Part shown: positions 61,261 through 64,000 of the stretch, piece after piece
Layout of the letters: every line of letters begins with the position of its first letter
Position numbering within the stretch: the first letter of the stretch is position 1
Assembly: GCF_002025255.2 (NCBI RefSeq)
Contig: NZ_CP054587.1
Span: forward strand, 1,488,001-1,552,000
DNA length: 64,000 bases
Direction of reading: 5' to 3'
From: Halolamina sp. CBA1230
Lineage (GTDB): Archaea; Halobacteriota; Halobacteria; Halobacteriales; Haloferacaceae
Position numbers and translations under genes: made by a program
Notes under the pieces: model-generated
The model's database searches: none
Seen by the model: only the letters and a program-made list of their open reading frames with translations
What the model was told of the DNA's origin: nothing

Positions 61261-61926
61261 ATGGCCCAGCGATCCCTCGCTCTCCCCGGAAACGACGGTC
61301 TCCGGACCCTCCTCGTCTCGGCTGTCGGGTTCGCGGTGCTGGCCTGGCTGACGGAGTTCTCACTGGACGCGATGGTCCCCCTCGCGGTGCTGTTCGGGAC
61401 GGTCGGCCTCCACAACTACCTCGACGATCGGTACGATCTGCCCGAGGGAACGGAGTGGATCGCCTACGGCGGCAGCGTCGTCGTCCTCGGGAGCTACTTC
61501 GCCGTCCGCAGTGCGGTCGCCCCGGGCGCTGCCTTCGCGGTCGTCGGTGGGTGGTTCGTGCTCGACGGTGCGGCGACGGTGCGCGCGGGGGCCGGCCGTG
61601 AGCCACACGAGTACGCCGCCGACCTCGACGGGGCGAGCAACAGCGAAGCAATGCTCCGGATACAGGTGCTCGGGTCGGTCCACGAAGAACTGCGGGAACG
61701 CGGCGAGCCAGGAACAGCGAGTGAGGTCGCCGACGCGCTCGGTCTCGCCGAGGGACGGGCGGCGTCGGCGCTCGACTACCTCGAAACGCGGGGGCAGGTC
61801 GAGCGTGTCGACGGCGGCGGCTACCGGGCGGTCGAGCCGCGCTGGGGGAAGGTCCAGCCGGCCGCGTCGTTCCTGCGGTGGCTGCCGCGACGGCTCTCCC
61901 GCCCGTTCCGGCTACTCCTCGGCTGA
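61261..61926 (+). CDS. Membrane-anchored winged-helix protein
   Basis: A 221-residue protein. Residues 15-115 hold about four hydrophobic segments (VSAVGFAVLAWLTEFSLDAM, VPLAVLFGTVGLHNYLDD, VVVLGSYFAVRSAVAPGAAF). Residues 130-190 are a cytosolic HTH: RIQVLGSVHEELRERGEPGT, then ASEVADALGLAEGRAASALD and a wing-like GYRAVEP. One-component regulators fixed to the membrane are seen in haloarchaea; the signal sensed is unknown. The end overlaps the convergent halocyanin gene by 15 bp. Confidence 0.7.
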   Translation: MAQRSLALPGNDGLRTLLVSAVGFAVLAWLTEFSLDAMVPLAVLFGTVGLHNYLDDRYDLPEGTEWIAYGGSVVVLGSYFAVRSAVAPGAAFAVVGGWFVLDGAATVRAGAGREPHEYAADLDGASNSEAMLRIQVLGSVHEELRERGEPGTASEVADALGLAEGRAASALDYLETRGQVERVDGGGYRAVEPRWGKVQPAASFLRWLPRRLSRPFRLLLG

Positions 61927-62322
61927 CTCCACCACTACGTCCCCGACCATCCCCATGCCCTCGTGGGGTTCACAGACGTAGTGGTACTCGCCGGGCACCT
62001 CGAACGTGAACTCGTAGGTGTGGCCGGAGTGGTGGATCTCGGGTTCCCCCTCCCAGTTCGCGTCCGCCGGCTGATCCCGGACGGCGACGTTGTGGTTGGC
62101 CGAGCGCCAGGCCCAGCGGACGCGGGTCCCGACCTCGACGCGGAGCGGTTCGTTCGTCCCCGGCGAGAAGACGTTCCGGCCGTCCGGGCCGACCTCGACG
62201 ACCGGTCCGTCGAAGCTCTCCGTCTCGGTCGTCGCGTCGCCACCCGAACAGCCCGCGAGGAGGGTCGCCGACGCGATCGCTGCGGTGCCGCGGCGGAGGA
62301 ACGCACGGCGGGAGTTGCGCAT
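61912..62322 (-). CDS. Halocyanin-like plastocyanin-fold copper protein
   Basis: A 136-residue exported blue-copper protein. Tat signal and lipobox MRNSRRAFLRRGTAAIASAT then LLAGC (Cys 25), membrane anchored outside the cell. Type-1 copper ligands are in place: SANHNVAV (His 77), YHYVCEPHEGMGM (Cys 117, His 120, Met 123 or 125). It carries electrons in the respiratory or a related chain. The partner oxidase is not nearby. Confidence 0.92.
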   Translation of the reverse strand: MRNSRRAFLRRGTAAIASATLLAGCSGGDATTETESFDGPVVEVGPDGRNVFSPGTNEPLRVEVGTRVRWAWRSANHNVAVRDQPADANWEGEPEIHHSGHTYEFTFEVPGEYHYVCEPHEGMGMVGDVVVESAEE

Positions 62323-62412
62323 ACGCGAGCGTGGGCAGGCGCGAAGGAACTGCCTTCCGATCCCGGAGCGCGAAACGTTTAGGCCGGGGAGCAGTCTACT
62401 GACGGGTAGCGA

Positions 62413-64000
62413 ATGGAACTCATCGTCACCGAGAAGGACAACGCGGCCCGTCGCATCGCGGAGATCCTCAGCGACGGCACCGCCGACGCCGAGCGGGTCA
62501 ACGGCGTCAACGTCTACGGCTGGGGGGGCAAACGGGTGATCGGCCTCTCGGGCCACGTCGTCGGCGTCGACTTCCCGCCGGAGTACGACGACTGGCGGGA
62601 CGTCGAACCCCACGAACTCATCGAGGCGCCGATCGAGACCGAGCCCACCCAGGAGGCCATCGTCGCCGCCCTCCGCCGGCTCTCCCGTGACGCCGACCGC
62701 GTGATCATCGCGACCGACTACGACCGCGAGGGCGAACTCATCGGGAAGGAGGCGTTCGACATCGTGCGCGGCGTCGACGAGTCGGTCCCCATCGAGCGCG
62801 CCCGCTTCTCCTCCATCACCGAGAACGAGGTGCAGGAGGCGTTCGCGAACCCGGGCGACCTCGACTTCGATCTCGCGGCGGCGGGGGAAGCCCGCCAGAC
62901 TGTGGATCTGGTGTGGGGCGCCGCACTCACGCGGTTCCTCTCGCTCTCCGCAGGTCAGCTCGGCGAGGACTTCATCTCCGTCGGTCGCGTCCAGGGGCCG
63001 ACGCTGAAGCTGCTGGTCGACCGCGAACGCGAGATCCAGGCGTTCGACCCCGACGACTACTGGGAGCTGTTCGCCGACCTCACCAAGGACGGCGGCTCGG
63101 GGTTCGAGGCGCAGTACTTCTACCTCGACGACGACGGCAACGAAGCCCGGCGCATCTGGGACGAGTCCGCCGCCGAGAACGCCCACGAGGCGCTTTCCGC
63201 CGCGTCGGCGGCCGCCGTCGAGGAGGTGAACCGCCGGACGCGAACCGACGAGCCGCCGGCGCCGTTCAACACCACGCAGTTCATCCGCGCCGCGAGTTCG
63301 CTCGGCTACTCCGCCCAACGTGCGATGAGCATCGCCGAGGACCTCTACACCGCCGGCTACATCACCTACCCGCGGACCGACAACACGGTCTACCCGGACG
63401 ATCTCGACCCCGAGGAGCTGCTCGAAGCGTTCTCGGAGACGTTCTTCGGCGACAGCGTCGAGGAGCTGTTGGAGCAAGAGGCGATCGAGCCCACCGAGGG
63501 CGACGAGGAGACGACCGACCACCCGCCGATCCACCCGACCGGCGAGATGCCGACCGATCTCGACGACGACGAGTGGGAAGTGTACGAACTGGTCGTGCGG
63601 CGCTTCTTCGCGACCTGTGCGCCGTCGGCGACATGGGAGCACCTGCGCGTCGTCGCCGGTGTGGAGAGCGAGGTGAGCCTTCCGTCGGGCGGCGAGCGCG
63701 GCCTCTCGCTGAAGGCCAACGGGAAGCGCCTGCTCGAGGAGGGGTACCACTCGGTCTACCCCTACTCCTCGGCCGACGAGACGGTCGTGCCGGACGTCGA
63801 GCGCGACGAAGAGCTGGCGGTCAGCGACGTCCACCTCGACGCCAAGGAAACCCAACCGCCGCGGCGCTACGGCCAGTCGCGGCTGATCGAGACGATGGAG
63901 GAGATGGGGGTTGGGACGAAATGTCTGACTGAGGATACAGAGGTGCTCGTTCGGAGCGGAAACGACATCAAGCGCCGGAAGATCAGTGCGGTTTTCGAGG
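62413..64000 (+). CDS. topA: DNA topoisomerase I (archaeal type IA), interrupted by an intein; runs off the window
   Basis: The first 503 residues of an archaeal topoisomerase I that relaxes negatively supercoiled DNA. TOPRIM: VTEKDNAARRIAEIL with the conserved Glu (7) and RVIIATDYDREGELIG with Asp 102 and Asp 104. The active-site Tyr is in AGYITYPRTDNT (Y319). The conserved QSRLIETMEEMGVGTK motif is reached at residue 503. Then, instead of the expected Ser/Thr-Arg, the frame continues CLTEDTEVLVRSG, an intein start. The 3' part of the gene, and the rest of the intein, are outside the window. Start is ATG 62413. Confidence 0.96.
   Translation, partial: MELIVTEKDNAARRIAEILSDGTADAERVNGVNVYGWGGKRVIGLSGHVVGVDFPPEYDDWRDVEPHELIEAPIETEPTQEAIVAALRRLSRDADRVIIATDYDREGELIGKEAFDIVRGVDESVPIERARFSSITENEVQEAFANPGDLDFDLAAAGEARQTVDLVWGAALTRFLSLSAGQLGEDFISVGRVQGPTLKLLVDREREIQAFDPDDYWELFADLTKDGGSGFEAQYFYLDDDGNEARRIWDESAAENAHEALSAASAAAVEEVNRRTRTDEPPAPFNTTQFIRAASSLGYSAQRAMSIAEDLYTAGYITYPRTDNTVYPDDLDPEELLEAFSETFFGDSVEELLEQEAIEPTEGDEETTDHPPIHPTGEMPTDLDDDEWEVYELVVRRFFATCAPSATWEHLRVVAGVESEVSLPSGGERGLSLKANGKRLLEEGYHSVYPYSSADETVVPDVERDEELAVSDVHLDAKETQPPRRYGQSRLIETMEEMGVGTKCLTEDTEVLVRSGNDIKRRKISAVFE
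63922..64000 (+). mobile_element. Intein N-terminus (block A) inside topA
   Basis: Starting at the TGT at 63922 the protein reads CLTEDTEVLVRSGNDIKRRK, the intein block A pattern (catalytic Cys1, then Leu-Thr-x-Asp-Thr-x-Val). It enters at the conserved GVGTK motif, just before the expected Ser (+1 nucleophile for splicing). Third-position A/T rises compared with the extein (8 of 26 codons against about 4 of the 31 before). The endonuclease region and C-terminal splicing blocks lie beyond the window, so mini or full length cannot be told. Confidence 0.88.

Follow-up and report, generated by a model that had tools for sequence, protein, structure and literature searches.

The topA gene of Halolamina sp. 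CBA1230 (genome G000) is interrupted by a 535-residue insert which is almost certainly a full-length intein, probably functional and mobile, which belongs to the known topA allele of haloarchaea, with splicing and homing predicted from sequence comparisons. To judge by both curated terminus models, which fit exactly at residues 1 and 535, the resemblance to an intein is not due to chance: TIGR01445 (intein_Nterm) begins at the first residue of the insert (E 1.7e-7, 32.1 bits, curated cut-off 24.5) and TIGR01443 (intein_Cterm) ends at the last one (E 3e-4, 20.9 bits, curated cut-off 15.6). In addition, the comparison with the congener G133 provides a clear example of an intein that has moved recently, with two congeners sharing a near-identical intein, diverged exteins and a short, apparently co-converted flank.

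Host gene and insertion point

The window analyzed was a stretch of 64,000 nucleotides (G000:C1:1488001-1552000). In it, the topA ORF starts with an ATG at 62413 on the plus strand and is free of stop codons up to 64000, where the gene runs past the window edge. The window itself contains just 26 residues of the insert, and the remainder of the gene was taken from the adjoining DNA of the same genome. The host protein is an archaeal DNA topoisomerase I (NF005555, E 2e-297; TIGR01057 topA_arch). The upstream extein reads ...RYGQSRLIETMEEMGVGTK, and codon 504 (TGT, 63922-63924) starts CLTEDTEVLVRSGNDIKRRKISAVFE immediately behind MEEMGVGTK. The sequence-only reading had placed the start of an intein at 63922, behind MGVGTK, and both the frame and the TIGR01445 match from residue 1 agree with it. 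Extension to the right, which had been proposed as a check, revealed the expected C-terminal His-Asn: the intein ends in ...NFAVGGGVVVHN, with VVVHN as its last residues, and the C-extein restarts as STRHNTIEKLYDR. N-extein, intein and C-extein form a single open frame of 1372 codons, and the exteins once joined measure 837 amino acids, which is the size of TopA in the intein-free congeners G375 and G316. The coordinates of these features are provided in Table 1.

The interrupted host motif had also been taken for a conserved one, and in an alignment with human TOP3B the insertion point indeed falls on the GIGT motif, a conserved part of the type IA topoisomerases close to the active site. On the minus strand of the window, positions 61912-62323, where a long antisense frame ends, read by eye as a signal of the lipoprotein type together with a halocyanin-like copper protein.

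Table 1. Features of the interrupted topA gene of Halolamina sp. CBA1230.
Feature	Position	Strand	Basis
N-extein of topA, residues 1-503, ending in MEEMGVGTK	window 62413..63921	+	ORF; Toprim, Topoisom_bac, NF005555, TIGR01057
Intein, N-terminal part, residues 1-26, block A CLTEDTEVLV	window 63922..64000	+	ORF, TIGR01445
Whole intein, 535 aa	C1:1551922-1553526 (1526 bases outside the window)	+	TIGR01445, TIGR01443, LAGLIDADG_3, HTH_3, MarR_2; alignment with 18 relatives
C-extein, 334 aa, Zn_ribbon_Top1 and HHH	3' of the intein; last base of the stop codon at C1:1554531	+	

Domain organization of the intein

The splicing domain of the intein is split, with an XRE-type HTH ahead of the endonuclease (HTH_3 segment, residues 161-193) and a MarR-type winged HTH behind it (residues 413-466). 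The LAGLIDADG domain that had been expected was found as a LAGLIDADG_3 match (E 5.8e-12) containing two motifs, NLFGDG and ALMDDEG, in both of which the acidic residue is kept. Block C reads LFGDG in G000, with Leu in place of the Phe in the other full-length members. Pfam Intein_splicing fell slightly below its cut-off in the G000 copy alone (33.1 vs. 35.8 bits). The G+C content of the intein is 57.9%, compared with 68.8 and 67.4% in the exteins. Overall, it falls below that of the exteins in 17 of the 19 carrier genomes, all except G009 and the mini-intein genome G013.

An AlphaFold2 model of the intein, built with 19 sequences as input, reached a pLDDT of 87 and a pTM of 0.87. Its best PDB matches were the intein endonucleases PI-TkoII (2cw7, E 1.9e-15) and PI-PfuI (1dq3), while its global superposition on known inteins was poor (TM 0.33), which is probably explained by a different domain arrangement. 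Both thermococcal proteins share with the topA intein a splicing domain with a nested LAGLIDADG endonuclease; however, they lie in other host genes, show only about 16-17% identity, and differ from the topA intein, in which the endonuclease is flanked by XRE-type and MarR-type HTHs. Other inteins of haloarchaea, for example in MCM, show weak similarity that is mostly confined to the LAGLIDADG part (residues 220-410), at mostly 23-35% identity, and they lie at different sites of different host genes.

The most plausible reading of the HTH modules is that they were added to the endonuclease for DNA binding. A further and rather doubtful proposal is a three-module DNA recognition, composed of the XRE-type HTH, the LAGLIDADG core and the MarR-type winged HTH and kept in nearly all full-length members, in which one module could also regulate topA. 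If true, this design would give a homing endonuclease whose footprint is unusually large. XRE-like segments were seen by eye in MCM inteins of G000 and another genome, which indicates that the HTH design is not unique to topA. No paper on such modules in inteins of haloarchaea turned up in a literature search.

Distribution of the topA intein and empty sites

The site was surveyed in 394 genomes of the order Halobacteriales with a 129-residue probe spanning the joined site, which reaches this site only and not topA inteins at other positions. All 394 genomes had a topA match, indicating that members of the order do not easily lose the gene. The probe was split in two matches in exactly the 19 carrier genomes (best E 8e-22 to 2e-39), and its best match was 2e-43 or stronger in the other 375. 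Since a half-probe match does not attain this value even in G000, these 375 sites are uninterrupted, which confirms the empty sites to be looked for in relatives; they include three congeners of G000 with 95-96% identity. Individual empty junctions were read with a protein-level pattern in all but 12 of 30 empty loci.

A full-length intein is carried by 18 of the 394 genomes, G000 included, and the relatives are 47-98% identical to that of G000. One further genome (G013; L024:1501-2001) has a mini-intein of 167 residues from which the endonuclease and both HTH parts are absent, and which retains C1, TxxH and HN followed by S. Three states of this one allele, empty, full-length and mini, occur within a single order. 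Lys precedes and Ser follows the insert in all 19 carriers when read on the corrected strand, the common site being GTK/STRH; Ser was the +1 residue predicted beforehand. In the alignment of the 19 sequences, C1, T90, H93, H534 and N535 are invariant, and T90-x-x-H93 corresponds to the block B that the sequence-only reading had sought. Pfam matches at E <= 0.01 among the 19 members were obtained for Intein_splicing (19), LAGLIDADG_3 (18), HTH_31 (18), HTH_3 (17) and MarR_2 (17).

In genome_contigs, a full-length relative was found in 13 records, several of them from named species, including Natrinema altunense, N. mahii, Natrialba swarupiae, Haloarcula mannanilytica and Halorutilus salinus, and a fourteenth record was a mini-intein in a MAG. 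Outside Halobacteria, the matches were just weak or limited to a short C-terminal part, in host proteins other than TopA, and no topA intein relative was found in phage and plasmid records. Two topA-probe matches, the best at full strength, were observed in each of G357 (C1:23673 and C1:2903745), G140, G189, G192 and G288, and correspond perhaps to two topA-like genes or to assembly overlap.

The suggestion that this could be a rare or new insertion site held only in part. The intein is rare (19/394 genomes), but its site is most likely not new to science, as topA is listed among the 24 intein alleles of 118 halobacterial genomes (Soucy et al., 2014; PMC4071816, Tables 1 and 2). The intein of G000 is a new addition to this rare but known allele and most likely sits at the same site, whose position is absent from the text of that paper. 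Host gene, presence in Halobacteria and rarity are alike in both surveys (4 halobacterial carriers in 118 genomes there, where the allele was monophyletic). In contrast, the non-halobacterial member from Methanotorris igneus (Soucy et al., 2014) had no such counterpart among our matches, in a search that covered other phyla only shallowly. The M. igneus accession given there under topA is identical to that under udp, and the topA entry may be a slip.

Traces of recent horizontal movement

The inteins of G000 and G133 are 98.3% identical at the DNA level, compared with 91.9 and 92.3% for the exteins. Set against its own exteins, with dS values of 0.32 and 0.30, the intein had a dS of 0.043, about seven times lower, and third codon positions differed at 17/535 in the intein and 166/834 in the exteins (Fisher p 7e-22). 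In the interval around the insertion point that is bounded by differences at -67 and +44, the two genomes differ at one base, whereas the empty congeners show 10-15 base differences from G000 across the same interval. Among 2392 extein segments of 110 nt, a single one had <=1 difference between G000 and G133, and it spans the insertion point. Such a pattern is expected where an intein has recently homed and its flanks were co-converted. A conflict between the intein and extein trees of G362 (family f4) is another sign that the intein moved horizontally: its intein groups with three f7 inteins (SH-aLRT 99) and its extein with f4 (99), while the fourth f7 extein clusters with f7 (SH-aLRT 100). 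The whole-intein dN/dS in eight pairs ranged from 0.10 to 0.23, which indicates that the protein is under constraint by purifying selection. With three congeners having empty sites beside two carriers, homing at topA is directly testable.

It might be argued that the intein splices while the endonuclease is dead in the G000 strain, so that inheritance would now be vertical only. The LFGDG variant of block C, a dN/dS of 0.45 for the LAGLIDADG domain between G000 and G133 (above that of the other pairs) and the loss of the endonuclease in the mini-intein of the same family would all favor it. However, both acidic residues are intact, the L-to-F change swaps one hydrophobic residue for another, the value of 0.45 is based on very few changes, and the transfer between G000 and G133 is recent. 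We consider this unlikely, although it deserves some weight. Far less probable is a slowly evolving intein inherited by G000 and G133 from their common ancestor. Both are sister tips in the intein tree and also in the extein tree, which contains carriers only; nevertheless, the sevenfold deficit in dS is at odds with the other seven pairs, in which the ratio of intein to extein dS ranges from about one half to slightly above two, and the near-identity enters the extein only right beside the insertion. An artefact of the assembly or of a frameshift, or the breakage of topA by a pseudogene insertion, has a negligible probability, with no supporting point found, because 18 other genomes, 17 with the full-length and one with the mini form, have a related insert at this codon, the frames are open and stop-free, the intein is under purifying selection and topA is matched in every genome searched.

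Proposed splicing and homing

As a mobile, splicing-competent intein, the insert would act as follows. TopA would be synthesised as a 1372-residue precursor, in which Cys1 would launch an N-S acyl shift assisted by T90 and H93 of block B. The N-extein would then pass to Ser+1, and Asn535 would cyclise with the help of H534, so that the exteins would be ligated as ...GVGTK-STRHN... and the 837-residue topoisomerase I restored. The LAGLIDADG domain is predicted to cut intein-free topA at the same site, with the XRE-type HTH and the MarR-type winged HTH probably helping it to recognize the DNA, and repair of the cut gene would copy the intein in.

Other inteins of the genome

Further inteins were noted in G000 outside the window. 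Those at C1:1596159-1599221, 1911387-1912904 and 2861715-2861936 lie in MCM (two), the DNA polymerase II large subunit (one) and DNA polymerase B (one), the hosts being named by eye. Another one, in the RFC small subunit (C1:2018753-2020060, minus strand), had no LAGLIDADG match, with Pfam confident for Intein_splicing only; by eye, it contains a NUMOD3-like NNPNYGG and a stretch VFHPDFLV...VVEVKG resembling a PD-(D/E)XK nuclease.
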